Shown piece by piece: positions 4,727 to 44,684 of a stretch of 64,000 bases of DNA. This stretch comes from Candidatus Thiodiazotropha sp. (ex Monitilora ramsayi) (lineage in GTDB: Bacteria > Pseudomonadota > Gammaproteobacteria > Chromatiales > Chromatiaceae): contig JAHXIO010000005.1 of the NCBI GenBank assembly GCA_025655595.1, positions 620,001 to 684,000 on the forward strand. The letters are read 5' to 3'. A model generated the notes under the pieces. It had not been told where the DNA came from and did not search any database. It saw only the letters and a list, made by a program, of their open reading frames with translations. Numbering within the stretch: position 1 is the first letter of the stretch; every line of letters starts with the position of its first letter. Position numbers and translations under genes: made by a program.

Positions 4727-4753
4727 TAAAGTTTTTTGACTCCTGTCCGTTAA
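4727..4753 (+). promoter_or_regulatory. Sigma-28 (FliA)-type promoter of the GGDEF/EAL gene
   Basis: TAAAGTTT (4727-4734) matches the sigma-28 -35 box at all 8 positions. After exactly 11 bases comes TCCGTTAA (4746-4753), which matches the -10 box GCCGATAA at 6 of 8. The start codon is 61 bases downstream. A sigma-70-like reading (TTGACT at 4736, CATAAT at 4757) overlaps it but has only a 15-base spacer. Confidence 0.6.
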
Positions 4754-4813
4754 CATCATAATTACCAGGGTTATTGTATACGTGCGGTTAGAGATTTCTC
4801 AGGGATAGCAGTT

Positions 4814-7402
4814 TTGCCAAGAGTATTACTGATTGAACATTCCGCCACGATCCGACATATCGAAAAAAACCTCCTGATAAAGGGAGGCTACGAGGTGGAG
4901 GTTGAGCTCGACTTCGAATCCGCAGTCATCCGCATCCGAACCGGTTCTGAGGATGGGGGCGCTTTCGATGCTGTCGTTGCGGGATGGCCCGATCACGCCA
5001 TCCCCGAGACGGACGTGTTTTGCGCAATGCTGGAGAAGCCGGCCTATGCCACCTTGGCGGTGATTGTATTGTCCCATGAATCGGAAAGTGCTGTATCCGA
5101 TTGGGTGGAGAGAAGGCCTCATACGGCATGTCTGCTCTGGGGGGATTACGAAAAGAGCACAGATCTCCTGCCGGCACTACTTGTCGAGACCAATAAAGCT
5201 CAAAGAAAGCGGGCGAGCTCCACGCCTGCCGTTCAGCCGATCCGAGTTCTTTTTGTTGATGATTCGAAGACTGTGCGGGTCAAGTATCAGCGGTTGCTGA
5301 CAGCTAACGGCTATCATGCCGAGTCTGCCGCCTCAGTGGGTGAAGGTTTTGACATGGCTGTTGCGACCCAGTTCGATATTGCCATTATTGACTATTTTAT
5401 GCCGGATGCCACCGGCGACGTGCTTTGCCAACGGCTGCGTGATAATGAAAGTACGGCTTCCATTACCACAGCAATCATAACCGGCACCTATCTCGACAAG
5501 GCGATCAAGGAATCGCTTGAAGCAGGTGCGGTTGAATGCATGTTCAAGAACGAAAGCGACGACCTGTTCCTGACACGTGTAGATGCTATGAGCCGGCATA
5601 TCCGTGCCCATAAATCGATTGAAAAAGAGCGTAAACGCCTTGGCGGTATCCTCAGGTCGGTTGGTGAGGGCGTATACGGTGTGGATTCCAGCGGCCATAT
5701 ATCTTTCATCAATCCGGCGGGCAGACGAATTTTAGGATATGAACCGGAAGAACGGATAATCGGTAAATCGGCAATGGCGCTTTTTCATTTTACCGATGAA
5801 GCGGGCAATCCGATCGATGAAGAACGCTGTTTTCTTCAAAAGACCTACGCGGGAGGGGAGCCGGTCCAAGCAAGGGAGACCGTCTTTTGGCATAAGTCGG
5901 GGGCACAGATTCCGGTAGAGTGTACAGTCTATCCTCTCACTATTGAGGAGAAACGAGAGGGTTCCGTGGTTGCCTTTCGCGATATCTCCGAACGCAAATT
6001 GCTTGAAGAGGAGTTGCGTTGGCAAGCGGGTCACGATGTACTGACCAAGCTGTTTAATCGACGTTACTTCGAGGAGCAGCTGATGCAAGAGGTGGAACGA
6101 GTAAAACGCAGCAACGAGACCAGTGCGCTGCTCTATCTTGATCTCGACCGTTTTAAATATATCAATGATACCGCGGGTCATGCTGCAGGTGATCGATTGT
6201 TGGTTGAGATCGCGCAGCAAATGACTCAGCGCCTAAGGAAATCCGACTTGCTTGCCCGCTTGGGGGGCGATGAGTTCGCCATCATCTTGAGAAATGTCTC
6301 AAAGAAAAGCGTTTATCTTGTTGCCGACGACTATCGTGAGATGCTCGATCACTACATGTTTGTTTTCAGTGGCAAGCAATATAAGGTAAACGGTACGATC
6401 GGCATTGCAATGATCGACCGGGATGCATTATCTGCAAGTGAAATTCTTGCCAATGCAGATATCGCCTGTCATATCGCGAAAGGTGAAGGGCGAAACCGCT
6501 CCCATCTCTTTATTCCAGGGAACGACAACAAGCAGGCGATGGATAAAGACCTGGGCTGGTCATCACGTCTGCACAATGCATTGGAATACGATTATCTGGC
6601 ACTACATGTCCAGCCCATCATTCCAGTAGAGCATATTCCCTCAGTATTGATGTCAGCGACCGAAGGGCCAATTTACCACCGGCTGCTTACGGTCGTACCG
6701 CAGGAGACGCAGATCAATGAGGTGTTGCTGAGACTCGATGACCCGGAATGGGGAATCGTCTTTCCTGGTGCATTTTTACCGACAGCAGAGCGGTTTAATA
6801 TGATGGATAGAATAGACGGCTGGGTCATTAATGCCGCCTTGAAGAAACTGGCGTCGTTACAGGCCCAGGGATATAAGGGGACGTTCACCATTAATCTCTC
6901 GGGTCAAACTATCACCAATATGGGATTGATCGAGGAGATTGAAACACTTGTCATCGACCTGACTATCGATTCTAGCAAAGTGATTTTTGAAATCACGGAG
7001 ACTTCGGCAGTTTCCAACCTGGTCTCCGCCAACGAATTGATAACCCGATTGAATGCGCTTGGCTGCCGATTCGCTCTGGATGATTTCGGTAGCGGCTTTT
7101 CTTCATTTTCACATTTAAAAAACCTACCGGTGGATTTCGTCAAAATCGATGGCTTGTTTGTCAGGGGGGTAGCGGATGACCCTGGCGACCGGGCGATTGT
7201 CCAGTCCATTAACGATATCGCTCACTCCCTTGGAAAAATGACTGTGGCTGAATACGTCGAGGATGCTGAAATTCTGCAATTCTTGTACGAGTCGGGAGTG
7301 AACTATGTGCAGGGCCACTTCCTTGCAAAGCCGATGGATATCTCCAATATCGACTCCCAAGTCAATTTTGAGAGTAAGGATGATTGCCAGAGCAGCGCCT
7401 GA
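4814..7402 (+). CDS. Double-receiver PAS-GGDEF-EAL cyclic-di-GMP protein
   Basis: 862 residues from a TTG start. A degenerate receiver (about 2-125) has EHS where the acidic pair belongs and VVAGW at the phosphoacceptor position. A second receiver (about 140-265) looks functional, with FVDDSK, AIIDYFMP and MFKNE. A PAS domain (about 275-395) leads into a GGDEF domain with intact GGDEF and an RKSD inhibitory site exactly five residues before it. The C-terminal EAL domain reads EVL in place of EAL but keeps the other expected ligand motifs: TINLS, EITET, DDFGSG, VKIDG, AEYVE and YVQGH. It may therefore both make and break c-di-GMP under phosphorelay control. No kinase is adjacent. A sigma-28-type promoter precedes it, suggesting motility control. 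Confidence 0.93.
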   Translation: MPRVLLIEHSATIRHIEKNLLIKGGYEVEVELDFESAVIRIRTGSEDGGAFDAVVAGWPDHAIPETDVFCAMLEKPAYATLAVIVLSHESESAVSDWVERRPHTACLLWGDYEKSTDLLPALLVETNKAQRKRASSTPAVQPIRVLFVDDSKTVRVKYQRLLTANGYHAESAASVGEGFDMAVATQFDIAIIDYFMPDATGDVLCQRLRDNESTASITTAIITGTYLDKAIKESLEAGAVECMFKNESDDLFLTRVDAMSRHIRAHKSIEKERKRLGGILRSVGEGVYGVDSSGHISFINPAGRRILGYEPEERIIGKSAMALFHFTDEAGNPIDEERCFLQKTYAGGEPVQARETVFWHKSGAQIPVECTVYPLTIEEKREGSVVAFRDISERKLLEEELRWQAGHDVLTKLFNRRYFEEQLMQEVERVKRSNETSALLYLDLDRFKYINDTAGHAAGDRLLVEIAQQMTQRLRKSDLLARLGGDEFAIILRNVSKKSVYLVADDYREMLDHYMFVFSGKQYKVNGTIGIAMIDRDALSASEILANADIACHIAKGEGRNRSHLFIPGNDNKQAMDKDLGWSSRLHNALEYDYLALHVQPIIPVEHIPSVLMSATEGPIYHRLLTVVPQETQINEVLLRLDDPEWGIVFPGAFLPTAERFNMMDRIDGWVINAALKKLASLQAQGYKGTFTINLSGQTITNMGLIEEIETLVIDLTIDSSKVIFEITETSAVSNLVSANELITRLNALGCRFALDDFGSGFSSFSHLKNLPVDFVKIDGLFVRGVADDPGDRAIVQSINDIAHSLGKMTVAEYVEDAEILQFLYESGVNYVQGHFLAKPMDISNIDSQVNFESKDDCQSSA

Positions 7403-7541
7403 GGCAAGTGTTCCTGGTTTCGAAATTTTGAATTGTGGTTTTTTCATTAATCGGCATACTGTTTGACGTTTTACTCAATCTCGATTTTGAGATGGGCGAA
7501 GCGACTGCTTCTATTCAAAATTGAAAACCTAAGGAGTCACC

Positions 7542-7925
7542 ATGAGCCGAGAAATCATTCGCACAGACCAGGCCCCCCAAGCTATCGGCACTTATTCACA
7601 GGCGGTGAAAGTGGGGCAGACAGTCTATCTATCCGGGCAGATACCACTGGTACCCGAAACCATGGAGATGGTGGAGGGGGATATCGAGGTGCAGATACGA
7701 CGGGTCTTCGACAATCTGCAGGCTGTGGCACGGGCGGCTGGTGGCGGCCTTGCCGACGTGGTTAAGCTGAATGTATTTCTCACCGATTTAAGCCACTTTC
7801 CGATCGTCAATCAGGTCATGTCGGAATATTTCGCTGAACCCTATCCCGCACGTGCGGCCATAGGTGTTGCGGCACTGCCCAAGGACGCTGACGTTGAAAT
7901 GGATGCTGTCATGGAGCTGTCCTGA
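7542..7925 (+). CDS. ridA: RidA-family enamine/imine deaminase
   Basis: 127 residues, the normal size. The N-terminal [10 protein letters not shown], the [10 protein letters not shown] strand and the C-terminal [21 protein letters not shown] are family signatures; the catalytic Arg is in PARAAIG. RidA hydrolyses reactive 2-aminoacrylate and related imines released by PLP enzymes, sparing other PLP enzymes from damage. A good ribosome-binding site (AAGGAG) lies eight bases upstream. ridA is often found between spoT and recG in gammaproteobacteria; here a GGDEF/EAL gene separates it from spoT and four genes separate it from recG. Confidence 0.95.
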
Positions 7926-7960
7926 AGCAGCGGCTTGGCATCAGCGCATTGCCGGTTTCT

Positions 7961-7987
7961 AAAGAATAATCCCTTATTTCCGATAGT
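7961..7987 (+). promoter_or_regulatory. Sigma-28 (FliA)-type promoter of the unknown gene at 8057
   Basis: TAAAGAAT (7961-7968, 6 of 8), an exact 11-base spacer and TCCGATAG (7980-7987, 6 of 8) fit the sigma-28 pattern. The predicted start is about 60 bases before the ATG at 8057. Alone it is a modest match; its weight comes from four similar sites in the window. Confidence 0.45.
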
Positions 7988-8056
7988 TTAACTACGGTGA
8001 TATGGCCTATGGTTAATGAATAGGGCTTTTAGGGTAAATTCAGGTAAATCGGAAAA

Positions 8057-8818
8057 ATGGACACAGAATTCGAACGACTCATTAAGGTCAATGTTCAGGG
8101 ACGAGTCTTTGTCACCTGTCAGTCCCGGCGTATCACCGATCTCAACATCATCGGCCACTATGTGGAAATCCTCGAACAGGCGATTCATGCCTTAATGACG
8201 GAGGAGAGTACACCGTCGGACTTTCATCGGATTATGGAGGAACAGCTAGTCTGGCTTGAAGGTGAACTTGACAAGACGGGCCAACAGGCTTCGGTGCCTG
8301 CTGCAGCTTCAGCCCCAAATGCATCCACGGAGAGTGCGGAAACCAAACCGCCGGCAGAAGCGGTAGAGTCGGAAAATGAGCCGAAAAAGAAGCCCACCGG
8401 CTATGTTCCCGAGGCCAAGACCATGCCCGAGCGCTTGAAAGACAAACGTTCGATCATGGAACATTTGTTGGATAACGATTGTATTACCCTCAAGCTGGTC
8501 ACACCGAACCAGGCCAAGAAATTTAAACATGGCTTGTTGGGTAAGGAGCCAGAGAAGGCCGAAGAGGAGTTGGTGGCCAATCTGCGCAACGTTCTGCATG
8601 ATCAGGTACGTAAATTCATCCGTAAAAACAATGGCGGACCTTGGGCCAGTGCCACCCTGCAGCATGAAGTTCGTATGGATATTACCCGGACGCGTACATT
8701 ACGCTCGCTGGTGACGCTGGCCAGGGGGCTGCTCGAGGAGCGTGAAGAGTGGCTGGTCAAGACCAAGAGCAGTCTGACAGGTCGCTTCTTTGGCGGCCGG
8801 GTCAAGATGAATAAATAA
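8057..8818 (+). CDS. Unknown protein with two conserved-looking blocks and a flexible linker
   Basis: 253 residues, family not recognised. An N-terminal block (about 1-75) is mixed alpha/beta with acidic helices (IIGHYVEILEQAIHALMTEE). A low-complexity Ala/Pro/Glu/Lys linker follows (about 76-120). The C-terminal block (about 125-253) is helical and basic, with DNDCITLKLVTPNQAKKF and a run from VANLRNVLHDQVRKFIRKNN to the end. There is no signal peptide or membrane helix, so it is probably cytoplasmic. A sigma-28-type promoter precedes it, which would place it in the motility/chemotaxis regulon. The next gene starts 32 bases downstream and may be co-transcribed. Coding status is likely; function is unknown. 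Confidence 0.75.
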   Translation: MDTEFERLIKVNVQGRVFVTCQSRRITDLNIIGHYVEILEQAIHALMTEESTPSDFHRIMEEQLVWLEGELDKTGQQASVPAAASAPNASTESAETKPPAEAVESENEPKKKPTGYVPEAKTMPERLKDKRSIMEHLLDNDCITLKLVTPNQAKKFKHGLLGKEPEKAEEELVANLRNVLHDQVRKFIRKNNGGPWASATLQHEVRMDITRTRTLRSLVTLARGLLEEREEWLVKTKSSLTGRFFGGRVKMNK

Positions 8819-8850
8819 CGAGATCAGATTCAACAAGTTGAGGAGTCCGA

Positions 8851-9390
8851 ATGGGTAAGCAGTACGACCTGATTACCGAGAAACATGCCCAGTTCATCAT
8901 TAGGCAACAGCTTTTTTTCGTTGCCACCGCCGCAATCGAAGGAAGAATCAACCTCTCACCCAAGGGGCTCGACAGCCTGCGTATTGTCAACCCTAATCAA
9001 GTGGCCTGGCTGAATCTCACGGGTAGCGGCAATGAGACTGCGGCCCATCTCCAGGATGACAACCGAATGACGCTCATGTTCTGCGCATTTGAAGGCGATC
9101 CCAAAGTACTGCGTGTCTATGGGCGTGCGAGCAGCCACCACGAGGGCAGCGAGGTCTGGGAGGAGCATATCGGTCGTTTTCCGCGTCTGCCGGGGGCACG
9201 CCAGGTCATCGTGATGGAGGTGGACTCCGTGGTCAGCTCCTGCGGTTTTGGTATTCCGCTGTTTGACTATGCGGGACAACGGGAGGCGCTACCGGCCTGG
9301 GCCGAAAAAAAGGGGGAGCAGGGTATCAGGGACTACTGGTACGAGCGCAACGACCGTACTATCGACGGCAAACCGTCGGATTTTGGCTGA
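8851..9390 (+). CDS. Pyridoxamine 5'-phosphate oxidase-like (split-barrel flavin) protein
   Basis: 179 residues. It has the split-barrel pattern of PPOX proteins: FFVATAAIEGRINLSPKG, then VAWLNLTGSGNETAAHLQDD, MTLMFCAFEG and VLRVYGRA. This subgroup of small PPOX proteins binds FMN or F420 and is poorly characterised; it is not the PdxH enzyme itself. A GAGGAG ribosome-binding site lies upstream. It follows the unknown gene at 8057 by 32 bases and is convergent with the EF-G gene, stopping two bases before that gene's end. Confidence 0.85.
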   Translation: MGKQYDLITEKHAQFIIRQQLFFVATAAIEGRINLSPKGLDSLRIVNPNQVAWLNLTGSGNETAAHLQDDNRMTLMFCAFEGDPKVLRVYGRASSHHEGSEVWEEHIGRFPRLPGARQVIVMEVDSVVSSCGFGIPLFDYAGQREALPAWAEKKGEQGIRDYWYERNDRTIDGKPSDFG

Positions 9391-9392
9391 TC

Positions 9393-11474
9393 TTATCCGA
9401 CATTGAATCCCAGGCGCCTCATGACCTCCGCCGGTACCGGTGCGAAATGGTCCAATTCCATGGAGAATGCGCCACGTCCGTGGGTGGCTGAGCGGAGTTC
9501 GGTGGCATAACCGAACATCTCTGACAGGGGGACGTGATTCCGGATAGCCTTCAGCTGTCCCGGGCGATCGCCAACCCCCTCGACTTCGGCCCGGCGTCCG
9601 GTCAGTTGTCCCAGTACCTCCCCCAGGTTCTCTTCCGGGGTGATAACTTCACAGCTGACGACGGGTTCGAGAAAAATTGATCTCCCCTTCGACAGACCTT
9701 CGCGCAGTGCCATGCCGGCGGCAATTTTGAAGGCGAGGGGGTTGGAGTCGGTGGCGTGTGCAGAGCCGTCGACAATAGTCACCTTGATATCGGTCACCGG
9801 ATAGCCGCCAATGATGCCGCTGTTGGCCGCCTCCCTGATGCCGCTTTCCACTGCAGATACGAACTCCGTCGGAATGGCCCCGCCAGTGAGTCTGTTATCC
9901 ACCTGCAGACCCTGTCCGGCATCTGCGGGGGTTAGATTGATGACCACATGACCATAATGGCCATGGCCGCCGGTCTGTCTGATGAAACGCCCCTCGGCTC
10001 TCTCCACCGGCCGGGTAATGGTCTCTTTGTAGGCGACTTTCGGTTTGCCGGTACGGACGTTGACACCTTGTTCTCTCTTCAATTTTTCGAGCAGAACTTC
10101 AAGGTGTAGCTCACCCATGCCTGAGAGAATGGTCTGGCCGGTCTCTTCTTCTGTCTCGGCTTTGAAAGTGGGGTCATCCTCGGCAAGATGTGTCAGCGCC
10201 TCGCCGATCCGTTCATGGTCCTGGGCGGTGACCGGTGTCACGGTGATTTTGATCACCGGGTCGGGGAAGTCGATCGGTTCCAGCAGCATCGGATGGTGGG
10301 GATCACAGAGAGTGTCGCCGGTATAGGCCTCCTTCATCCCCAGCAGGGCTGCGATATCACCGGCGTGAACCTCAGTGATGTCGTCCCTGTGTTCGGCATA
10401 CATCCGCTCAAGGCGTCCTACCCGCTGAGGTCGGCCGTATCTGGGGTTGAGGACAGTAGCGCCCGACTTGAGGACTCCGGAATAGACCCGCACATAACAG
10501 AGTCGGCCGGCGTAGGGATCGGTTACCGTCTTGAACAGCAGTGCGCTGAGTGGTGCATCATCTTCGGATTGGCGCTCAACCGGATTTTCCGTATCGGGAT
10601 GTCGTCCGGTGATATTGCCGATATCGAGAGGTGAAGGCAGATAATCGATGACTGCATCCAGGAGTGGCTGTACACCCTTGTTTCTGAGTGAGCTGCCGCA
10701 GAGTACAGGCACAATCTTGCTGCTGAGGGTGGCGCGACGGAGTGCGTCGCGGATCTCATCGCACTCGATCTCGGCTCCCTCCAGCCAACGAGCGAGTAGT
10801 AGATCATCCTGTTCAGCGATCTGCTCGATCAGGTCCGCGCGTGCCGACTCAGCCGTTTTAAGATGACTTTCGGGGATCTCTCCATAGTCTCTGTGTGCCC
10901 CTAATTCATCACGCCAGCGGATCGCTTTCATGTCGAGAAGATCGATCACGCCCTCGAAATCCGATTCGAACCCCAGGGGTAGCTGTAGGGCGACAGGATT
11001 GGCGCCGAGTCGCGCTTTGATACTGTCCAGCGACTGTTGGAAGTCAGCGCCCAGCCGATCCATCTTGTTGATGAAACAAAGACGCGGTACGCCATATTTA
11101 TCTGCCTGTCGCCAGACTGTTTCACTCTGGGGTTCGACTCCCTGTGAGGCGTCGAATACCACCACTGCACCATCAAGTACCCTTAGCGCACGCTGCACCT
11201 CTGCAGTGAAATCGATATGGCCGGGGGTATCGATGAGGTTGATCTGATGATCGTTCCAGAAAGCCGTCACGGCGGCATCGACGATGGTGATGCCGCGCTC
11301 CCGCTCCTGATCCATCCAGTCTGTGACGGTGGTGCCGTTGTCTACAGAGCCCAGCTGATGCGTGCGGCCCGCATAGTAGAGAAAGCGTTCGGTGGTGGTG
11401 GTTTTGCCGGCATCGATATGGGCAATCAGACCGATGTTGCGAAGTTTCTCAATAGGAGTGGGTTTGGCTGACAT
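9393..11474 (-). CDS. fusA2: Elongation factor G paralogue
   Basis: 693 residues, full length. The GTPase motifs are intact: AHIDAGKTTT (G1, near 17-24), DTPGHIDFT (G3) and NKMDRLG (G4). Domains II to V follow, with GELHLEVLLEKLKRE in domain III and the GGYPVTDIKV region in domain IV. It stands alone, not in the str operon with rpsL, rpsG and tuf where the main fusA belongs, so it is most likely the second EF-G copy found in many gammaproteobacteria. Such paralogues range from translocation-only or recycling-only factors to poorly active versions; the sequence alone does not decide. Confidence 0.92.
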   Translation of the reverse strand: MSAKPTPIEKLRNIGLIAHIDAGKTTTTERFLYYAGRTHQLGSVDNGTTVTDWMDQERERGITIVDAAVTAFWNDHQINLIDTPGHIDFTAEVQRALRVLDGAVVVFDASQGVEPQSETVWRQADKYGVPRLCFINKMDRLGADFQQSLDSIKARLGANPVALQLPLGFESDFEGVIDLLDMKAIRWRDELGAHRDYGEIPESHLKTAESARADLIEQIAEQDDLLLARWLEGAEIECDEIRDALRRATLSSKIVPVLCGSSLRNKGVQPLLDAVIDYLPSPLDIGNITGRHPDTENPVERQSEDDAPLSALLFKTVTDPYAGRLCYVRVYSGVLKSGATVLNPRYGRPQRVGRLERMYAEHRDDITEVHAGDIAALLGMKEAYTGDTLCDPHHPMLLEPIDFPDPVIKITVTPVTAQDHERIGEALTHLAEDDPTFKAETEEETGQTILSGMGELHLEVLLEKLKREQGVNVRTGKPKVAYKETITRPVERAEGRFIRQTGGHGHYGHVVINLTPADAGQGLQVDNRLTGGAIPTEFVSAVESGIREAANSGIIGGYPVTDIKVTIVDGSAHATDSNPLAFKIAAGMALREGLSKGRSIFLEPVVSCEVITPEENLGEVLGQLTGRRAEVEGVGDRPGQLKAIRNHVPLSEMFGYATELRSATHGRGAFSMELDHFAPVPAEVMRRLGFNVG

Positions 11475-11543
11475 GGGAGGGTCTGTTTCTTATTGGGACT
11501 TTATGTTGGATTGAGTTTAGGTGTCATTGGGAAGTCGTTGTGA

Positions 11544-11559
11544 GTTAGGGCCTGTTAAC
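11544..11559 (+). repeat. Solo 16-base copy of the terminus of the 48 kb repeat element
   Basis: The sixteen bases GTTAGGGCCTGTTAAC are identical to the outer end of the right terminal repeat of the element at 48031-48297 (reverse strand, including its flanking GTT). The match ends there. It lies in the gap between yjbQ and fusA2 and may be a remnant of a former copy. Confidence 0.45.
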
Positions 11560-11584
11560 TGGTGAACAGCTCGATATAAAACAC

Positions 11585-12007
11585 CTACTCGGCCTCACCA
11601 TAAAGGGTCACTGTCACCTGTCGACGGTGAGGATGGGTACGATGCTCCCACAGATAGATTCCCTGCCATGTCCCCAGGTCAGATCTCCCCTGGGTGATGG
11701 GAAAGCTTAGATCCATTTTTGTGAGTATGGAGCGGATATGCGCTGCCATGTCGTCTGTACCCTCCAGTGTATGTTCGAAGTGGGGGTCGCCATCGGTCAC
11801 CAGCCTCGACATGAACCCCTCCAGGTCGGAACGGACCGTCGGGTCGGCGTTCTCACACAGAATCAGCGAGGCGCTGGTGTGGTGGATGAAGAGTTGGCAG
11901 ATGCCGGTCTCGATGCCCGAGCTTTCCACGACCTGGGCTACCTGACGGGTGATGTTGTAGGTGTTCCGTCCCCGGGTCTCGATCTGCAGTCGCTGCTGTA
12001 TCACCAT
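11585..12007 (-). CDS. yjbQ: YjbQ-family protein (UPF0047)
   Basis: 140 residues from the ATG at 12007, chosen because GGGAGAAG lies about ten bases before it and because the family is about 138 residues; a longer reading to 12085 would run up to the recG start. The motif LFIHHTSASLILCENADP and the C-terminal GTWQGIYLWEHRTHPHRRQV are diagnostic. E. coli YjbQ has weak thiamine phosphate synthase activity, but the main role is not settled. The gene is divergent from recG with about 78 bases between starts. Confidence 0.93.
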   Translation of the reverse strand: MVIQQRLQIETRGRNTYNITRQVAQVVESSGIETGICQLFIHHTSASLILCENADPTVRSDLEGFMSRLVTDGDPHFEHTLEGTDDMAAHIRSILTKMDLSFPITQGRSDLGTWQGIYLWEHRTHPHRRQVTVTLYGEAE

Positions 12008-12084
12008 CTTTGCACTTCTCCCACTGAATCTGGCATGCTTCTCATACTTCCCGCCATACGATCTTACATTGAAAGTGTGAGCCA

Positions 12085-29418: not shown

Positions 29419-30270
29419 TTATGACGAGAGCTGAGCCTTGAGCTTGTTCATGGCGCTCTTCTCAATCTGACGTATACGCTCGGCGGAGACCTGGTATCGG
29501 TCGGCCAGCTCATGCAGGGTCGACTTGCTCTCTCCCAGCCAACGGGCCTCAAGGATTTCCCGGCTGCGAGGATCCAGGTCCTGCAGGGCATGGGTCAGGC
29601 GTCGTTTCATCTGTAACTCGCTGTCACTGGCCTCAAGCAGCGCGGCGGGTTCCATACGCATGTCGCTCAGATAGCCGGCGGGTGTCGCGACGACCTTCTC
29701 TTCATCATCGTGGGCCGGACCGTCAAAGGCAATGTCCTGACCGGAGAGGCGGCTCTCCATCTCAAGCACGGTCTCGGGTTTGACCCCCAGATCCTGGGCC
29801 ACGTCTTCAACCTCCTGTTGAGAGAACCAGCCGAGGCGTTTCTTCGAACTGCGCAGGTTGAAGAAGAGTTTCCGTTGCGCCTTGGTGGTAGCCACCTTGA
29901 CGATACGCCAGTTCTTGAGGATGTACTCGTGGATCTCCGCCTTGATCCAGTGGACGGCAAATGATACCAAGCGGACCCCCATATCGGGATCGAAGCGTTT
30001 CACCGCCTTCATGAGGCCGACGGTGCCTTCCTGAACCAGGTCGGGGAGTGCCAGTCCATAGCCGCTGTAGTTGCGCGCGATGCGAACCACAAAGCGGATG
30101 TGGGAGGTGATCAGTTTCTGCGCAGCATCCAGGTCCTTGTGGTCTCGCAGGCGAACAGCCAGATTGTGCTCCTCGTCAGCACTCAGCATAGGCAGCTGAA
30201 AGGCCGCGCTGATATAAGTGTCCATACTGCCGGTAGGCAGGGTGGTCAGTGCAAGTGCTTTACTCATCAA
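29419..30270 (-). CDS. rpoH: RNA polymerase sigma-32 (heat-shock) factor
   Basis: 283 residues; the second Met (30267) is an equally good start. Region 2 ([40 protein letters not shown]) and region 4 ([18 protein letters not shown]) are intact. The RpoH box, QRKLFFNLR, is present near 132-140; it separates sigma-32 from other sigma-70 relatives. It directs transcription of chaperones and proteases. The gene follows ftsX by 143 bases, and that gap holds a sigma-E-type promoter and a sigma-70-type promoter overlapped by a CIRCE operator. Confidence 0.97.
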
Positions 30271-36075: not shown

Positions 36076-36125
36076 CGATGCCGTGATCTGGGGTATCCTG
36101 TCGCCTCGATTCTACGCTTAGTTTC

Positions 36126-36143
36126 AGGGCCTGTTAGCAGGCT
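36126..36143 (+). repeat. Partial repeat-terminus match with a small hairpin
   Basis: AGGGCCTGTTAG matches 11 of the first 12 bases of the 48 kb repeat element (terminal AGGGCCTGTTAA). It also forms a hairpin, GCCTG-TTAG-CAGGC, just before rsmD. It may be a degenerate remnant or a local hairpin. Confidence 0.3.
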
Positions 36144-36162
36144 CTTATAAAATCAGGGGCCA

Positions 36163-36738: not shown

Positions 36739-36797
36739 CAATTGTCATTTAACACGCTGTTTTCTGATACTATTATCATTTTTGCCAGTTCGTCTAA

Positions 36798-37562
<765 letters not shown>

Positions 37563-37565
37563 GTG

Positions 37566-39245
37566 ATGATGTCTCGTCTGCTCGTGAAAAAGGCTCCCTT
37601 GTGGGGCCTTTTTTGTGTCCTGTTTTTTCTTTCTCCGTTCCTATCGGCCGGTACACCCAGTGCCGCTGCGATCGCAACCGCCCATCCGCTGGCAACCGAA
37701 GCGGGGCACGAGATTCTGAAGCGGGGGGGCAATGCTTTCGATGCCGCAGTCGCGGTCAGTGCCGTCCTGGCAGTTGTCGAACCCTACAGTTCCGGTTTGG
37801 GTGGTGGGGGATTCTGGTTGTTGCATCGAGCCAGCGACGGTTTCGAGACCATGGTGGACGGTAGGGAGAAGGCGCCTATGGCAGCGCATCGTGATCTCTA
37901 CCTGGACAAGAAAGGTGAGGTTATTCCAGGTCTCTCGATTAACGGGCCGCTTGCGGCAGGCATACCGGGCGAACCGGCTGCGTTGGCCCACATATCCGAG
38001 CGCTATGGACGATTGCCGCTCAATGACGTGTTGGCACCAGCGATCATAATCGCAGAGACGGGTTTTCCCGTCGACAGCCACTATCTGCGCATGGCGACCT
38101 GGCGGCTTGAGACACTTCAGGCGTGGAAGGATGCTTCCGCCATCTTTCTTCACCAGGGAGGATTGCCGGCCGAGGGGGCTGCGATTCGACAGCCCGAACT
38201 GGCCGAGACCTTGAAGCAGCTGGCTGTAAAGGGTGCAGACGGATTCTACCGAGGAGATCTGGCCAAGCGCCTGGTGGACGGTGTGAGGGAAGCCGGTGGT
38301 ATCTGGACACTTGAAGATCTTGCGGATTACAGGGTGATAGAACGGGCACCGGTCAAAGGCAGCTTCATGGGATTGAAGATAACCAGCGCCTCGCCTCCAT
38401 CATCCGGCGGAATCGCGCTGATTACGATGCTCAATATTTTGCAGGGTTTCAATTTACCGAGCCTGGAGCAGCCGCAACGCACCCATGTGATTGTTGAGGC
38501 AATGCGTCGTGCCTATCGGGACCGAGCGGACTATCTTGGCGATCCCGATTTCGTCGACATCCCTGTGGAGGCATTGACACATCCCTGGTATGCGGCAGGT
38601 TTGGCGAGAGATATACAGATGGATAGCGCCAGCCGGAGTGTCGGTAATGTGAGTCACGAAACGGGGCGTGACACGACTCACTTCTCTATTCTGGATAGGG
38701 AAGGGAATCGTGTGGCGGCCACGCTGAGTATCAACTATCCGTTCGGGTCCGGATTCGTCGTTCCCGGTACGGGGGTGCTGTTGAACGATGAGATGGACGA
38801 TTTCTCAGCCAGTCCCGGCGTGCCGAATGTTTATGGTCTGGTGGGTGCCGAGGCCAACGCCATCGCAGGCGGTAAGCGGATGCTGTCGAGTATGTCTCCA
38901 ACATTCGTGGAGGATGAACAGCAGCTTGCCGTGCTGGGTACGCCTGGCGGGAGTCGTATCATCACCATGGTGTTATTGGGTATTCTTGAAATGGCGGAAG
39001 GTAATGGACCGAAGCAGTGGGTAAGCAGACCCCGCTTCCATCACCAGTATCTGCCCGATCAGATTCAGTTTGAACCGGATGCCTTCAGTGAATCCCAGCG
39101 CAAACAACTGAAAAATATGGGGCATCGTTTAAAACCCCTCAAGCACCCCTACGGCAATATGCAGGCAGTTTACTGGAATAAAAAAACCGGTCAGGTGGAT
39201 GCGGCCAGTGATCCAAGAGGTCTGGGATTGGCTAAAATCGAGTAA
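37566..39245 (+). CDS. ggt: Gamma-glutamyltranspeptidase
   Basis: 559 residues; a GTG at 37563 and an ATG at 37569 are close alternatives. A signal peptide (about 1-29) sends it to the periplasm. The self-cleavage site lies at RDTTHFSI, where the second Thr becomes the N-terminal nucleophile of the small subunit, and SSMSPTFV and GTPGGSRI form the glutamate pocket. It hydrolyses glutathione or transfers its glutamyl group. The stretch encoding the signal peptide contains a terminator-like hairpin (37587-37614), so expression may depend on readthrough. Confidence 0.95.
   Translation: MMSRLLVKKAPLWGLFCVLFFLSPFLSAGTPSAAAIATAHPLATEAGHEILKRGGNAFDAAVAVSAVLAVVEPYSSGLGGGGFWLLHRASDGFETMVDGREKAPMAAHRDLYLDKKGEVIPGLSINGPLAAGIPGEPAALAHISERYGRLPLNDVLAPAIIIAETGFPVDSHYLRMATWRLETLQAWKDASAIFLHQGGLPAEGAAIRQPELAETLKQLAVKGADGFYRGDLAKRLVDGVREAGGIWTLEDLADYRVIERAPVKGSFMGLKITSASPPSSGGIALITMLNILQGFNLPSLEQPQRTHVIVEAMRRAYRDRADYLGDPDFVDIPVEALTHPWYAAGLARDIQMDSASRSVGNVSHETGRDTTHFSILDREGNRVAATLSINYPFGSGFVVPGTGVLLNDEMDDFSASPGVPNVYGLVGAEANAIAGGKRMLSSMSPTFVEDEQQLAVLGTPGGSRIITMVLLGILEMAEGNGPKQWVSRPRFHHQYLPDQIQFEPDAFSESQRKQLKNMGHRLKPLKHPYGNMQAVYWNKKTGQVDAASDPRGLGLAKIE
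37587..37614 (+). terminator. Terminator-like hairpin inside the 5' end of ggt
   Basis: AAAAAGGC and CCC (37587-37598, with one bulged T) pair with GGGGCC and the T run at 37603-37614 around the loop TTGT. It has the form of an intrinsic terminator after the ferredoxin gene but lies within the ggt signal-peptide codons. It may attenuate ggt or be chance. Confidence 0.45.
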
Positions 39246-39394
39246 TTTGTCGCCATTTTCCACCCGATAGATTGCAAAAAGCGTCTTAATGTCACAAACT
39301 CAGCATTGAATTTGAGTCTGTTTTAGCTCAAGCTTGTGCCAGATGCCAAGCATCTGTCTAACAATGGAAAAAACGTAGAGAGATCGAGAGTACA

Positions 39395-39676
39395 ATGATG
39401 AAAACCACCATGATGAAAACCGCCGCTATGGTTTTGGGTCTGGGCCTGCTTGCAGGTTGTGCCACAACAGACATGAGTAAGATGGAAGCCGACATCGCCA
39501 ATGCACAGGCTGCTGCCGATGCCGCTATGAAGGCTGCTAAAGAGGCTCAGCTGGACGCTGCTACCGCTCAAGGTACGGCTGATGCCGCCATGAAAGCTGC
39601 CAACGCCGCTAGTGATGCTGCTGATGCTTGCAACGAGAAGTGCGGTCGTATGTCAGAAAAGGCTATGGCCAAATAA
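39395..39676 (+). CDS. Lpp/OprI-like alanine-zipper lipoprotein
   Basis: 93 residues. The signal peptide ends in the lipobox LLAGC, so the mature protein starts at a lipidated Cys near residue 22. The rest is a single long helix with alanine-rich heptads (ADAAMKAAKEAQLDAATAQG and so on), like OprI of Pseudomonas and Lpp of E. coli. The C-terminal AMAK ends in Lys, which in Lpp links to peptidoglycan. The start region repeats ATGATGAAAACC, so an ATG at 39410 is possible. A strong terminator follows, and a nearby L,D-transpeptidase could be the linking enzyme. Confidence 0.9.
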   Translation: MMKTTMMKTAAMVLGLGLLAGCATTDMSKMEADIANAQAAADAAMKAAKEAQLDAATAQGTADAAMKAANAASDAADACNEKCGRMSEKAMAK

Positions 39677-39714
39677 AACCGCTTTTCGGTTGCGTCCCTT
39701 CGGGGGCCTAGAAG

Positions 39715-39749
39715 ACCCCGGTACTGAAAAGTTTCCGGGGTTTTTTTTT
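39715..39749 (+). terminator. Strong terminator after the Lpp-like gene
   Basis: ACCCCGG (39715-39721) pairs with CCGGGGT (39735-39741), followed by nine T in a row. It is a typical highly efficient terminator for an abundant lipoprotein message. Confidence 0.9.
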
Positions 39750-39776
39750 GCATCCAAAGACTATTTCGGATGATTG

Positions 39777-40721
39777 TCAAAGAGGAGGCGGCTCGGCGTG
39801 CTTTGCTATCTCGTCACCCTGCCAAAGATAGAGGGGCATAGGGACGCCGGTTTTACTCTGCGCATATTCATTCAGCAATGACCAATCGGGTTTACGATTG
39901 TCTTCACCCAGTTTACTGACGACAGCATTGACCAGCTCCGTATAGTTGTGTCCCTTGGCTTCGATATATTCGACCAGCGGTGGGTGAACCTGAACATAGA
40001 GCTCGCCATTTAGCCAGCCAGCCTTGTAGGGCTGATCGATGATCCGAACGGGCGTACCCGGTTCGATCAGCTGGAAGAATTGCTTGATGTTTTCGGGGTA
40101 TAGGCGGATACAGCCGTGACTGACCCGCATACCGACGCCATATGGACGGTTCGTCCCATGCAGGAGATATCCCGACATGCCGAGATAGATGGCGTGGCTG
40201 CCCAGAGGATTGTCTGGTCCTGGCGGTACCACTGGAGGCAGGGGGTCTCCGTCTTCTTCATGTTCTTTCAGAATTGAGGCCGGAACAGTCCAGCTCGGTC
40301 CCTTTTTCTTACCGACGACCTGGGTCATTCCCGTTGGTGTGCTCCACCCCTCTCTACCGATGCCAATGGGGTAGGTGACAACGACGGGCTCGTCTTTGGG
40401 GAAATAGAAGAGCCTCAACTCCGCCAGATTGATTACGATCCCTTCTCTGGGGCCCGGCGGCAGGATGTACTGTTGGGGAATGACGACCGTGGTGCCTTCT
40501 CCCGGCAGCCAGGCGTCTACCTCGGGATTGGCGGCGACCATCTGGCGGTAACCGATGTCATAGATACGGGCAATATCGGAAAAGGTCTCTTCCCAGCGGG
40601 TGGTGAGGGTGAAGGTCTGACCCACCACATCGTCCCCTGGCTCGGGGAGGTCGAAGGTAACAGCCCCCGCCGGCGGCAAAACGCACAGCAGCAGACCGAG
40701 TAGATACAGCGTGATTCTCAT
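39777..40721 (-). CDS. L,D-transpeptidase (ErfK/YbiS type) with LysM domain
   Basis: 314 residues with a signal peptide (about 1-20). A LysM-like peptidoglycan-binding domain (about 36-85) precedes the YkuD catalytic domain with HGTNRPYGVGMRVSHGCIRL, where SHGC holds the catalytic Cys. Enzymes of this type form 3-3 peptide crosslinks or attach Lpp to peptidoglycan. It is convergent with the Lpp-like gene, a suggestive neighbour for the second role, although the sequence does not prove it. Confidence 0.93.
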   Translation of the reverse strand: MRITLYLLGLLLCVLPPAGAVTFDLPEPGDDVVGQTFTLTTRWEETFSDIARIYDIGYRQMVAANPEVDAWLPGEGTTVVIPQQYILPPGPREGIVINLAELRLFYFPKDEPVVVTYPIGIGREGWSTPTGMTQVVGKKKGPSWTVPASILKEHEEDGDPLPPVVPPGPDNPLGSHAIYLGMSGYLLHGTNRPYGVGMRVSHGCIRLYPENIKQFFQLIEPGTPVRIIDQPYKAGWLNGELYVQVHPPLVEYIEAKGHNYTELVNAVVSKLGEDNRKPDWSLLNEYAQSKTGVPMPLYLWQGDEIAKHAEPPPL

Positions 40722-41038
40722 AGATCCAAATCTAAAGTGTTACTAGATCATAGTTTAACCGAGGATCGGCCCTATGAGTGTGAATTGTAGGGCAACATCA
40801 GGGGTTTAATCACGCTACGGCGGCATAGTGACCCAGTCTGGACGAGCTGAATGACCCTAGGCACAGCTCAAGTATCGTCCTATAGGGCCGTTAGTTTATG
40901 TAACCGGGATCGGCCGGAGGCGCAGTATTGTCTGGCATTGGCCCTGACATATATATCGTCTGCAGGCTGCCCGTCTAAGAAGTTGAATCTAGGTGATATC
41001 GCCTGAGGTGAGGGCGGTATGGCTGAATAAGGAACTCC
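40722..41038. other. 317-base gap upstream of the ParA-like gene
   Basis: It separates divergent genes and contains a sigma-28-type promoter at 40868-40894. No coding frame or RNA gene is evident. No clear promoter for the L,D-transpeptidase was recognised. Confidence 0.55.
40868..40894 (+). promoter_or_regulatory. Sigma-28 (FliA)-type promoter of the ParA-like gene
   Basis: TCAAGTAT (40868-40875, 6 of 8), an exact 11-base spacer and GCCGTTAG (40887-40894, 6 of 8) fit the pattern. The start codon lies 145 bases downstream, a long leader. Confidence 0.45.
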
Positions 41039-41812
41039 ATGCAGCGAATCGCAGTCATCAATCAGGCGGGCAGTGTGGGCAAGACCACGATCGCAACCAG
41101 CTTGGGGCATGCTCTGGCGCTGGCCGGCCGGCGTGTGACTGTGGTGGATCTCGATCCCAGCGGGCAATTGGCCAATGGGCTGGGAATATTCCGCGCCCCC
41201 TCCAAGGGCATTGATCGTGTGATGATGAACGGCACCACACTGGGGTCTGTAAAAATGGCGGTACGGGATCTGCTCAGCCTGATCCCTGCAGGCGCTGAAC
41301 TTCTGCAGATGGAGGATAATCAAACGCAGGGCGCTACACGCATGCAACTGCTCAGGCAGGCCACCGAGGGGCAGTTGGTGGATCAGGCCTTTGTTTTGTT
41401 CGATGCTCCCTCCTCGAGCGCGCTGTTGATGATGAACGCCATCTTCGCAGCCGATGAGTTGTTGATTCCTGTCACAACCGACTCGTCCAGCCTGAACGGT
41501 GCCATGAAAACCCTATTACTCGTCAAGCGGTTGACACCTTATCTGGAGAAGCCGGTGGCTGCCCGTATTCTTATCAACCGCTATCTCCCAAGGTCCAGGG
41601 ACGGTAAAGCAGTGGTGGAAAAGCTGGAAAAACATTTTTCAACGCTCTGTCTGGAAACACGGATCAGAGAGGGTGCTGCGATCGAGGCCTGTGCCGGGAT
41701 AGGTCGGACCGTTTTTGAGTACAAACCGGGAAGTCACTCGGCCAGGGAGTTTCATGAATTGGCCAAGGAGCTGGTAATGTTGCATGATCGAAATAAACCG
41801 GCAATTGTATAA
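41039..41812 (+). CDS. ParA/MinD-like ATPase with atypical Walker A motif
   Basis: 257 residues. The P-loop region is NQAGSVGKTTIATSLGHALA: the GxxGKTT core is present but the signature Lys of the ParA deviant Walker A (KGGxxKT) is replaced by Gln. Walker A-prime VVDLDPSGQLANGLG and the LFDAPSSSA segment are ParA-like. No parB or replication gene is near, so plasmid partition is unlikely; positioning of a motility, chemotaxis or polar protein is a better guess. Sigma-28-type promoters precede it and the STAS gene 85 bases downstream. Its function is inferred only. Confidence 0.85.
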   Translation: MQRIAVINQAGSVGKTTIATSLGHALALAGRRVTVVDLDPSGQLANGLGIFRAPSKGIDRVMMNGTTLGSVKMAVRDLLSLIPAGAELLQMEDNQTQGATRMQLLRQATEGQLVDQAFVLFDAPSSSALLMMNAIFAADELLIPVTTDSSSLNGAMKTLLLVKRLTPYLEKPVAARILINRYLPRSRDGKAVVEKLEKHFSTLCLETRIREGAAIEACAGIGRTVFEYKPGSHSAREFHELAKELVMLHDRNKPAIV

Positions 41813-41836
41813 AGCTTCAAGGGTGTCAGACGATAG
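41810..41836 (+). promoter_or_regulatory. Sigma-28 (FliA)-type promoter of the STAS gene
   Basis: TAAAGCTT (41810-41817, 7 of 8), an exact 11-base spacer and GACGATAG (41829-41836, 6 of 8). The -35 box overlaps the stop codon of the ParA-like gene, and the STAS start is 61 bases after the -10 box, the same distance as at the GGDEF/EAL gene. Confidence 0.5.
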
Positions 41837-41897
41837 ATACTAGTGAACCGGTACTTTTCGGTTCTATCAGGTGATCAATGCGATTCGGAGTTTTTCT

Positions 41898-42200
41898 ATG
41901 TCAATAACCAGCGCCATGTCCGATGATAATGAAACAGTAACCATAAAAGTGTCGGGACGCTTCGACTTTTCCACCCATCAGGATTTTGTGCAGGTCTACA
42001 AAAGCTTTCCTAAAGGAGAGAAGTCCTATGTGGTGGATCTGGATGGCGCCGAATACATGGACAGTTCCGCCATGGGCATGTTGCTCCAATTGCGAGAGTA
42101 CAATAAGCATGGGGAGCAGGTTATTCTCTTGAATGGAAACGATGCGGTCAAGGATGTCCTGAGAATCGCCAATTTTGGCAAACTCTTCACAATTCAATAG
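41898..42200 (+). CDS. STAS-domain anti-sigma factor antagonist
   Basis: 100 residues from the ATG at 41898, chosen because GGAG lies seven bases before it; the frame is open from 41871. The fold pattern VTIKVSGRFDFSTHQDF, VVDLDGAEYMDSSAMGMLLQ fits SpoIIAA-like STAS proteins, and DSSAMGM holds the Ser that partner kinases phosphorylate. Such proteins sequester anti-sigma factors or act in signalling complexes. In Pseudomonas, HsbA of this type is known to bind the anti-sigma-28 factor FlgM. With a sigma-28-type promoter here, a feedback loop is conceivable, but no kinase or phosphatase is adjacent. Confidence 0.9.
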   Translation: MSITSAMSDDNETVTIKVSGRFDFSTHQDFVQVYKSFPKGEKSYVVDLDGAEYMDSSAMGMLLQLREYNKHGEQVILLNGNDAVKDVLRIANFGKLFTIQ

Positions 42201-42340
42201 TTATTGCTCTTCCTGATGGTTGAGACATTGATGCTCTGCCGTGTCCGCGATATCTACGACAAGCAGGGTTGTCGTCGAAAGAGTGCAAATCGGTATCTCT
42301 TTCCGGTATCCTTGCCCCTTTTTTTGCAGGGGTGCCTGTC

Positions 42341-43432
42341 ATGGGTTTTAAATGTGGTATCGTCGGTCTGCCCAACGTGGGTAAATCAACGCTGTTCAAC
42401 GCGCTGACCAGGGCAACCATCGCTGCCGAGAACTATCCTTTCTGTACCATCGATCCCAACGTCGGTGTGGTCCCGCTGCCCGATACCCGGATGGATGTGA
42501 TCGCCGGTATTGTAGAGCCCCAGGCTGTGATTCCGACCACCATGCAGTTCGTCGATATCGCAGGATTGGTGGCGGGCGCCTCCAAAGGAGAGGGTCTGGG
42601 AAACAAATTTCTCGCCAATATCCGCGAAACCGATGCCATTGCCCAGGTGGTGAGGTGTTTTGAGAGCGAGGATGTCGTCCATGTTGCCGGTCGAGTCGAT
42701 CCTGTCGCAGACGTGGAGGTGATTAATACAGAGTTGGCCCTGGCGGACCTGGAGTCGGTTGAAAAGGGGCTGGCCAAGACCGAACGACAGGCGAAAACCG
42801 GTGATAAGAAGATCCTGGTCAGAAAGGCATTGCTCGAAAGAGTAAGGGATCAACTTAATGAGGGCCTGCCAGTACGCCGTATGGAGTTGAGTGAGGAAGA
42901 GAGAGAGGAGCTGCGCGATCTGTTCCTGCTCACCATTAAACCGGTACTCTATATCGCCAATGTGGCGGAAGACGGTTTCGAATCAAATCCTCTTCTGGAT
43001 GCAATGCGGGATTTGGCGGGGCAGGAGGGTGCCGAGGTGGTACCGGTATGTGCTGCTATTGAAGCTGAGATCGTGGAGCTGGAAGAGGATGAGAGGGCTG
43101 AATTCCTGACGGATATGGGGCTCGATGAGCCTGGGCTCAATCGGGTCGTACGGGCGGGATACAAGCTTCTTGGGCTTGAGACCTACTTCACTGCCGGCGA
43201 AAAGGAGGTCAGGGCCTGGACGATTCCGCAAAATGCGACTGCACCAGAAGCGGCTGGGGTGATCCACACCGACTTCGAACGGGGCTTTATCCGTGCCGAA
43301 GTGGTGGGTTACGACGATTTTGTCGCCTGTCAGGGTGAACAGGGAGCCCGCGAGGTGGGCAAACTGCGCTCTGAGGGCAAGGACTATATTGTCCAGGATG
43401 GTGACGTCATCCATTTCCGATTCAACGTCTGA
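42341..43432 (+). CDS. ychF: Redox-regulated ATPase YchF (Obg family)
   Basis: 363 residues from the ATG at 42341, the exact E. coli length; the frame is open further upstream but conserved sequence begins [20 protein letters not shown]. The G1 loop is GLPNVGKST, and the G4 region is NVAED rather than NKxD, the feature that makes YchF prefer ATP. A TGS domain ends in [19 protein letters not shown]. It binds ribosomes and affects stress responses. The start codon follows a CCCCT/AGGGG hairpin (42316-42333) that overlaps a weak ribosome-binding site. Confidence 0.96.
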
Positions 43433-43486
43433 TATTGACACTGCAGGATGGCGACAGTATATTGCCCGCCCTTCAGAACAGCTTTT

Positions 43487-43563
43487 GGCAAGGTAGCTCA
43501 GTTGGTTAGAGCACAGCACTCATAATGCTGGGGTCGGCAGTTCGAATCTGCCCCTTGCTACCA
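43487..43563 (+). tRNA. tRNA-Met (CAT), elongator type
   Basis: Seventy-seven bases with an encoded CCA. The acceptor arms are GGCAAGG and CCTTGCT, the D stem is GCTC/GAGC, the anticodon arm CAGCA/TGCTG has the loop CTCATAA (anticodon at 43521-43523) and the T arm is GGCAG/CTGCC with TTCGAAT. Pair 1-72 is a G-T wobble. Similarity to E. coli elongator tRNA-Met in the D and anticodon arms favours elongator Met over Ile2 or initiator. Confidence 0.95.
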
Positions 43564-43568
43564 AACGA

Positions 43569-43600
43569 AAAAGGCCTGACGAATGTCAGGCCTTTTTTCT
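43569..43600. terminator. Bidirectional terminator between tRNA-Met and the unknown coiled-coil gene
   Basis: AAGGCCTGAC (43571-43580) and GTCAGGCCTT (43585-43594) form a perfect 10-base stem with the loop GAAT. A T run follows on the plus strand, and an A tract precedes it, so it can end transcripts from both sides. Confidence 0.92.
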
Positions 43601-43615
43601 TTTCCGGAAGAGGTT

Positions 43616-44533
43616 CTATTCCGGCATGTTGGGATTGTGCCACACCAGTTTCATGAGCGCGCGGCGCCTGATATCGGTGAGGCGGTCGGCGAACTCCTGA
43701 ATGTTCACATCCAGCAGGTTGATGATGTCCAGCTTCGTCTTGCGCTCGGTCATTTGGGCTTGAGCCTGCTCATGCAGCCGGCCGATCTCACGTCGCTCCA
43801 GTTCGCGACTCATCTCGACGATATTCTTTTGGTTCTCGGATTGTATGCGGTTCAGCAATTCCTGTTCACGGCTAACGATCTCTGTGTTGAGATCGTCCAG
43901 TGCCTGGTCCAGAATCGCGAGTAGCTCCACCTGCTCATTGCGTATGGTGAACAGGTTGTCCACCCCCTCCTCGACCCAATCCTGAATCTCTTGCAAATGC
44001 TGATCTTTCAGCTGCTGCATGATGTGTATCGAGTCAGGCATGGAGAGGAGATGCTCGAAGACGTCGATCCAGCTCTCCTCCTGATAGTTGAAAAGTTTGT
44101 CCATGTAGTGGAGGAGCAGACCGACAGAGTGGCTGTAGTCGTAATCCTGATAGCATTGGCTGATAGATTCGAGGATATCCGCGAAATAGGCTGCTGTACG
44201 TGCGAAGGCCCAGTCGTTCTCAGCCTTCAGACCTTTGGCATAGATGGCATTGAGCCGGTCGAGAAGCCTGAGATAACCGTCCTCTTGAAGCGGGCTCTTG
44301 CCGGAACGGAGTAGCAGCGAGATTTCCAGCAGCATCTCCTGCAACAGTCCGATATCCGCGGTCTCCACCTGATCTGAGAGTTTGTTTTCGAGGAAATCGA
44401 AATACTGTTTGAGGATATGACAGCTCTCCTCCTGCGCCATGACAGGAAGGTGATCGACACCTTGCAGCCTGAAGGCGGCGTGTCCATCATCTCGATTCGT
44501 CATAGGAAGATTTTCGATAGTTGAGCCTGTCAT
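43616..44533 (-). CDS. Unknown cytoplasmic coiled-coil protein
   Basis: 305 residues from the ATG at 44533 (GAGAGG just upstream); ATG at 44551 and TTG at 44560 are alternatives. No family is recognised. It is almost all helical and acidic, with no signal peptide or membrane segment. Residues about 30-170 carry aromatic-rich helices (HILKQYFDFLENKL, YDYSHSVGLLLHYMDKLFNY), and about 190-280 form a likely coiled coil (LNTEIVSREQELLNRI and following). The C-terminus NIQEFADRLTDIRRRALMK is basic. A good sigma-28-type promoter lies about 120 bases upstream, so a role in motility or chemotaxis is possible. It shares the terminator with tRNA-Met. Confidence 0.75.
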   Translation of the reverse strand: MTGSTIENLPMTNRDDGHAAFRLQGVDHLPVMAQEESCHILKQYFDFLENKLSDQVETADIGLLQEMLLEISLLLRSGKSPLQEDGYLRLLDRLNAIYAKGLKAENDWAFARTAAYFADILESISQCYQDYDYSHSVGLLLHYMDKLFNYQEESWIDVFEHLLSMPDSIHIMQQLKDQHLQEIQDWVEEGVDNLFTIRNEQVELLAILDQALDDLNTEIVSREQELLNRIQSENQKNIVEMSRELERREIGRLHEQAQAQMTERKTKLDIINLLDVNIQEFADRLTDIRRRALMKLVWHNPNMPE

Positions 44534-44657
44534 GGTCCTCTCGGTTCGCATACGGATCAATGAGTATCTGTCTATAGCAACATTATATTATCGTTTACTA
44601 ATATTTTAAAGAGAAATGTATCAAATTCCTGGGTAATTCATACAGTCTCTTGCACTC

Positions 44658-44684
44658 CTATCGGCTGAGTCTTCGGCAACTTGA
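44658..44684 (-). promoter_or_regulatory. Sigma-28 (FliA)-type promoter of the unknown coiled-coil gene
   Basis: On the minus strand TCAAGTTG (44677-44684, 6 of 8), exactly 11 bases and GCCGATAG (44658-44665, 7 of 8). It points to the gene ending at 43616, with a leader of about 120 bases to the ATG at 44533. Confidence 0.55.

Follow-up and report, generated by a model that had tools for sequence, protein, structure and literature searches.

The flagellar sigma factor FliA (sigma-28) stays bound to FlgM while the hook-basal body is under construction, and is set free when FlgM is exported. In Escherichia coli, FliA targets listed in the accessible part of the source comprise late flagellar genes, chemoreceptors and the cyclic di-GMP (c-di-GMP) genes yhjH and ycgR (PMC4183435). 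In Pseudomonas putida, bifA is under partial control of FliA and has a sigma-70 promoter in addition (PMC5300878, available portion). The HptB-HsbR-HsbA-HsbD pathway of Pseudomonas aeruginosa links a STAS anti-anti-sigma protein, FlgM and c-di-GMP, and the inhibition of FliA by FlgM is treated in the same source, as far as its available part goes (PMC5085249). Here we describe five FliA-type promoter boxes in a 64-kb stretch of DNA (the whole stretch analysed, called the window) from the 4.68-Mb genome, in 46 contigs, of Candidatus Thiodiazotropha sp. (ex Monitilora ramsayi). The boxes lie before genes for a receiver-PAS-GGDEF-EAL protein, a 253-residue protein, a ParA-like ATPase, a STAS protein and a coiled-coil protein. 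Judging from sequence comparison, FliA very probably reads the classical late genes together with the GGDEF-EAL, ParA-like, STAS and coiled-coil genes in this genus, and the gene of the 253-residue protein in one lineage.

The boxes and the 11-nucleotide (nt) spacing are the same as in the E. coli class III regulon, whereas receiver-PAS-GGDEF-EAL, ParA-STAS and coiled-coil proteins are not among the targets given in the part of that source at hand (PMC4183435). The GGDEF-EAL gene resembles P. putida bifA in being a gene for a c-di-GMP enzyme with a (here predicted) sigma-28 promoter; the likeness is one of enzyme type. In P. aeruginosa the STAS gene stands with hsbR and hptB and its product acts upstream of FlgM, whereas here it is next to the ParA-like gene and probably under sigma-28 control itself. 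The original prediction, made from the letters of the window, had spoken of an undescribed decision module under sigma-28 control; since FliA already has known c-di-GMP targets, yhjH and ycgR in E. coli and bifA in P. putida, "undescribed" claims too much as regards the principle. As far as the literature searched goes, the ParA-STAS pair is new as a target, so is the coiled-coil family, and evidence of this kind is new for the genus; among the titles returned by the literature search none on the FliA regulon of this genus or on a ParA-STAS pair was found.

The window was searched on both strands with the pattern TAAAGTTT-N11-GCCGATAA, scored out of 16, with spacings of 8-10 and 12-15 as controls and with letter-permuted consensuses of unchanged base composition (1000 or 2000 trials) as the null. 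A predicted sigma-28 promoter (TAAAGTTT-N11-TCCGTTAA, 14/16) was found at 4727..4753 on the plus strand, 60 nt upstream of the TTG codon that starts the gene for the 862-residue receiver-PAS-GGDEF-EAL protein (4814..7402, plus). A candidate promoter (TAAAGAAT-N11-TCCGATAG, 12/16) at 7960..7986 (plus) precedes the gene of the 253-residue protein (8057..8818, plus). Further predicted promoters lie at 40868..40894 (plus; TCAAGTAT-N11-GCCGTTAG, 12/16), upstream of the gene for the 257-residue ParA-like ATPase (41039..41812, plus), and at 41810..41836 (plus; TAAAGCTT-N11-GACGATAG, 13/16), where the box begins inside the ParA stop codon and stands upstream of the gene for the 100-residue STAS protein of anti-anti-sigma type (41898..42200, plus; start taken from orthologues). 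The fifth (TCAAGTTG-N11-GCCGATAG, 13/16), at 44658..44684 on the minus strand, lies upstream of the gene for the 305-residue coiled-coil protein (43616..44533, minus; ATG start likewise taken from orthologues). All five stand in correctly oriented gaps of a gene map drawn by a longest-open-reading-frame (ORF) heuristic. Their scores and the spacing of 11 agree with what had been predicted, apart from the second site, which starts at 7960 and not at 7961; the gene descriptions were also borne out, since Pfam (threshold E 0.001) recovered the receiver, PAS, GGDEF, EAL, ParA-type (AAA_31) and STAS domains and left the other two proteins without a family.

At the spacing of 11, nine matches of at least 12/16 were obtained on both strands of the window, against one to four at each of the other spacings. 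Permuted consensuses gave a mean of 2.6 over the whole window; of 1000 trials, 0.7% reached nine. The five matches observed in correctly oriented upstream gaps compare with a permuted mean of 0.27 and a maximum of 4, so that five were never reached in 2000 permutations; the measured chance rates are of the order estimated beforehand, which was about 2 for the whole window and 0.1 for the gaps. The four further matches of at least 12/16, all on the plus strand, sit within long ORFs (20537, 40085 and 59846) or in a gap facing the wrong strand (30354). A weight matrix made without the five sites, from three distinct flagellin box pairs of the genus, the flgM site of this genome and its motA-type site, placed the five at ranks 1, 3, 4, 5 and 6 of 127,948 positions. 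A second matrix, in which six E. coli FliA sites were added to this genus set, placed them at ranks 1-5; the site at 4727 ranked first, and that at 7960 was third with the first matrix and second with the other. The matrix rescan once proposed as a check, run here in near form, thus puts all five at or near the top of the window.

The FliA system itself is in place. A gene for FliA, on whose presence the original prediction depended, was found in 22/22 genomes of the genus, and a profile search of the window genome gave a single gene above the FliA (FliA/WhiG) cut-off, one flgM, and two matches to Flagellin_N separated by 1.5 kb, the weaker of which is probably flgL. The fliC promoter of this genome (TAAAGATC-N11-GCCGTTAC) and its flgM promoter (TAAAGATA-N11-GTCGATAG) score 12/16 each, the site of a MotA_ExbB-family gene scores 14/16, and the fliC box was seen in 20/20 flagellin loci examined. 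Since the window sites match or exceed the scores of fliC and flgM, they are as good as the classical late promoters of the genome. That another member of the sigma-70 family, or a DNA-binding regulator, reads the boxes in place of FliA is very unlikely: three other sigma-70-family genes are present to make such a reading conceivable, but they score below the FliA cut-off, which only one gene passes, and the same architecture and spacing stand before flagellin in all the loci examined, before flgM and before the MotA_ExbB-family gene. A sigma-70-family gene lies in the window at 29419-30270 (minus strand; 283 residues, Sigma70_r2 and r4), with 69.6 bits against the FliA model, below the cut-off; it probably encodes the heat-shock sigma factor.

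Conservation of the boxes was determined in 22 genomes of the genus searched for orthologues, the closest named relatives being two clam Candidatus Thiodiazotropha (L044 and L045; ParA protein identity 76 and 75%). The GGDEF-EAL site was found in 16/16 genomes with an orthologue (scores 11-14, at a distance of 79-99 nt from the match start; one row is a contig-end fragment), a set that omits the six of the 22 genomes with weaker matches only (G066, G068, G071, G073, G074 and G075). The ParA site was present in 22/22 genomes (scores 11-13, 125-414 nt upstream of the start), the STAS site in 21/21 (scores 11-13, 32-92 nt upstream of the aligned start; G072 is left out at a contig end), and the coiled-coil site in 22/22 (scores 11-15). 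Best scores of at least 12 were reached in 13/16 rows for GGDEF-EAL, 18/21 for ParA, 19/22 for the coiled-coil gene and 16/21 for STAS, the rest of these four sets scoring 11, and in 3/20 for the 253-residue protein. The STAS figure includes L065, whose best match is elsewhere; at the conserved place 15/21 score 12-13 and 6/21 score 11. Two of the three rows for the 253-residue protein (L140 and L142) match at another place, and the split copy in G066 is omitted from that set; L039, L042 and possibly L151 are in no count. Choosing the best-scoring site favours conserved boxes, a bias that the permutation test has equally, and in each of the four gene sets 0/2000 permutations reached the observed mean best score. 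This signal stood out at spacing 11 only. Between genomes, the identity of boxes and spacers at the four sites was 0.82/0.43, 0.90/0.57, 0.83/0.39 and 0.78/0.34, with flanks at 33-52% (the STAS figures come from the 10/21 sites with full flanks), whereas the set of the 253-residue protein gave 0.49 for boxes and 0.37 for spacers (18 rows). In the conserved sites the columns T.AAG and CG.TA are invariant or nearly so while the spacers diverge, and in the coiled-coil set T.AAG and GCCG.TA are invariant in 22/22.

The expected conservation in relatives therefore held for the GGDEF-EAL, ParA-like, STAS and coiled-coil sites and failed for the site at 7960. Because the boxes of these four genes are conserved across the genus, their predicted sigma-28 wiring is well supported, and the extension of the class III sigma-28 regulon in this genus appears real; sigma-28 wiring of the gene for the 253-residue protein is plausible and lineage-limited. 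Homologues of that protein occur in 21/22 genomes of the genus. Among 20 genomes examined, the box at 7960 is at its place in the window genome, in G069 and G070 (11/16 in these two) and weakly in G073 (10/16), and in G068, G071 and G075 matches of 11-13 occur at other positions in the gap before the gene, so that the site may be a lineage-specific promoter.

One genome of the genus, G072 (2.6 Mb, 93% complete), gave no flagellin match but retains fliA, and its coiled-coil, ParA and GGDEF-EAL genes still have their boxes. Its contig C73 still holds homologues of the flagellar block of the window genome beside fliA, and its boxes and spacers are the same, or almost the same, as in its close relatives, which implies a short time for decay; as a natural experiment on the fate of the boxes G072 is therefore uninformative. 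Either an assembly gap or an early loss of flagella would account for the missing flagellin. A reduced member of the genus is reported, in the accessible part of PMC9938160, to have lost flagellar biogenesis.

Several observations weigh against the reading that FliA controls these genes. A permuted consensus is a coarse null, and the genomes of one genus are kin. The letters of the ParA site and its distance from the start vary by lineage, with TCAAGTAT/GCCGTTAG in the window genome, G069, G070 and G072 and mostly TAAAGAAT/GTCGATAG elsewhere, a comparison drawn from best sites without alignment of whole upstream regions. The site at 7960 fails the genus test, as 83/2000 permutations reach its mean. 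At 13 loci of the coiled-coil gene from 12 other genera, the 550 nt upstream gave a mean best score of 9.38 against a permuted mean of 9.68, and 1883/2000 permutations reach the observed 9.38. Finally, a genome-wide search allowing up to three mismatches gave 68 matches against 41 for the reversed pattern, so that over half of such matches may be chance and single sites elsewhere in the genome are unproven. These last numbers, with the 2.6 matches expected in the window and the absence of the box at 7960 from its place in most of the genus, are what could be said for the view that the matches arose by chance or as a side effect of A+T-rich intergenic DNA. Against it stand the composition-keeping permutations, none of which matched the conservation at the four sites, and the constancy of the core columns beside diverging spacers. 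For the four sites chance is practically refuted, and for 7960 it is not fully so; as an account of the matches as a whole we consider it extremely improbable.

The genome averages 0.9 sites of up to three mismatches per 64 kb, and the window has three. The 16 sites with up to two mismatches include 4727 and sites at the MotA_ExbB-family gene, a 4HB-HAMP receptor, two HDOD genes, a GspH pilin gene and a pilin gene with a 15/16 match; others precede three cytochrome-type genes, a CoA-ligase and a substrate-binding protein, and some lie inside ORFs. Among sites with three mismatches are those of two methyl-accepting chemotaxis protein (MCP) genes, one HD-domain, one GGDEF, two PilZ (one site inside an ORF) and a T2SSG-like pilin gene; one of the 68 sites, C14:39600, was left out of the reading. 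The 15/16 candidate (L005:978-1527; G000:C2:559947-559973, minus) lies 34 nt upstream of a pilin gene that encodes an N-methylation motif, other candidate matches precede a GspH pilin (L011) and the T2SSG-like pilin (L172), and a link of the flagellar sigma factor to pili is possible on these sequence matches. The HDOD genes L010 and L012 each have a 14/16 match within 85 nt upstream.

With regard to the target proteins, GGDEF and DDFG are motifs of c-di-GMP synthesis and breakdown, respectively. The GGDEF-EAL protein retains both in its sequence, and may make or break c-di-GMP; its TTG start is common to all 15 full orthologues, its own included. The serine of STAS proteins is a phosphorylation site, and here the serine motif DSSA is present in 21/21; the STAS protein passes the TIGR00377 cut-off (55.2 against 53.45). 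ParA-type ATPases of the ParC type place chemotaxis clusters. The window protein shares with them the ParA-type fold, and a paralogue about 30% identical to it lies in the fliA-che-motility cluster of the same genome beside a MotA-family gene; unlike them, it pairs with a STAS protein and has lost the signature lysine. The deviant Walker A with this lysine (KGGxGKT), by which ParA partition ATPases are recognised, is absent from the window protein: its lineage reads QAGSVGKTT in the window, QVAGVGKTT in L052 of G069 and QVGGVGKTT in a fragment from G072, whereas, of the 12 aligned orthologues, the 10 besides the window protein and L052 have the canonical QKGGVGKTT. With the signature lysine gone, ATP turnover of the ParA-like protein may have changed. 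An assignment to BcsQ (cellulose) was rejected, as the protein scored 100.1 against the TIGR03371 cut-off of 157.85 bits. In G071:C233 (L071, L073) the ParA orthologue is broken into two overlapping frames.

The gene order ParA-STAS-YchF is common to the window and the five genomes of the genus whose region was read, and in all of them the coiled-coil gene lies beyond YchF and faces the other three. The YchF GTPase gene follows STAS at 42269..43432 (plus; TIGR00092) and might be transcribed by read-through from the STAS promoter. A plasmid search with the ParA-YchF stretch gave no match, and a defence library searched with four proteins gave nothing except one weak ParA match (E 0.002). Neither the 253-residue protein nor the coiled-coil protein has a Pfam family at E 0.001. 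The model of the former is unusable (predicted local distance difference test, pLDDT, 40.8). The model of the latter is all-helical at low confidence (mean pLDDT 63.5) and gave no fold match at E 0.001, and a sequence search of the PDB gave no match up to E 5; its invariant core holds HLQEI and WVEEGVDNLF in 16/16 aligned sequences.

Homologues of the coiled-coil protein occur in 30/194 genomes and 13/61 genera sampled in the family. An upstream window of equal length (550 nt) gave a mean best score of 12.9 in 22 genomes of the genus, and the sole, weak exception outside it is L281, with two matches of 11/16. Sigma-28 control of the coiled-coil gene thus looks like a feature of this genus. Ten coiled-coil neighbourhoods outside the genus had no flagellar theme when their gene names were judged by eye, without a domain search. 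In genus g20 the gene was seen in two copies in G020, G087, G117, G137, G154 and G167.

Together, these data are consistent with a scheme in which FlgM would hold FliA until the hook-basal body is done, whereupon FliA would transcribe fliC, flgM and the motA-type gene and, in addition, the GGDEF-EAL, ParA-like, STAS and coiled-coil genes, with the gene of the 253-residue protein in one lineage. The products would then be made in cells with a built flagellum. The c-di-GMP enzyme would set the second messenger while cells swim, the STAS protein would serve as a phosphorylatable partner switch, and the ParA-like protein would probably place a partner. A more specific alternative is one dedicated sigma-28 decision circuit with feedback from the STAS protein to FlgM or c-di-GMP, in the manner of HsbA; the conserved DSSA serine, the presence of FlgM, a GGDEF-EAL enzyme likewise under predicted sigma-28 control, and the HsbA-FlgM-HsbD precedent (PMC5085249, in its available part) speak for it. 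On the other side, no HsbR-type kinase/phosphatase gene was seen beside STAS in the window or the five relatives read (by eye, with no domain search and the rest of the genome not searched), the targets are scattered, and there are many other candidate sigma-28 targets, so that we regard such a circuit as unlikely. The term "decision module" is for similar reasons not supported, as the targets lie in three separate places, the genome has other sites of equal score, and joint action of the products is hypothetical; sigma-28 control, the other part of the claim, is well supported for the four conserved targets and plausible, within one lineage, for the fifth. It is conceivable, and in our estimate distinctly unlikely, that the ParA-STAS pair joins with the coiled-coil protein in a new device, dependent on sigma-28 and active only once the flagellum is complete, in which ParA and the coiled-coil protein place the STAS protein or the c-di-GMP enzyme at the pole, with feedback on FlgM or c-di-GMP and a choice between swimming and attachment, perhaps extending to pili through the pilin-gene site.

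The preferred reading, an enlarged FliA regulon, would mean that the late-flagellar checkpoint also controls c-di-GMP, STAS and ParA-type proteins, for which comparative evidence is given here in a genus with two named clam-associated relatives. It would also single out an uncharacterised coiled-coil family whose genes have a predicted sigma-28 promoter in this genus and lack one in the other 12 genera read. These genes may offer a testable way into how swimming cells of host-associated bacteria prepare for settlement.

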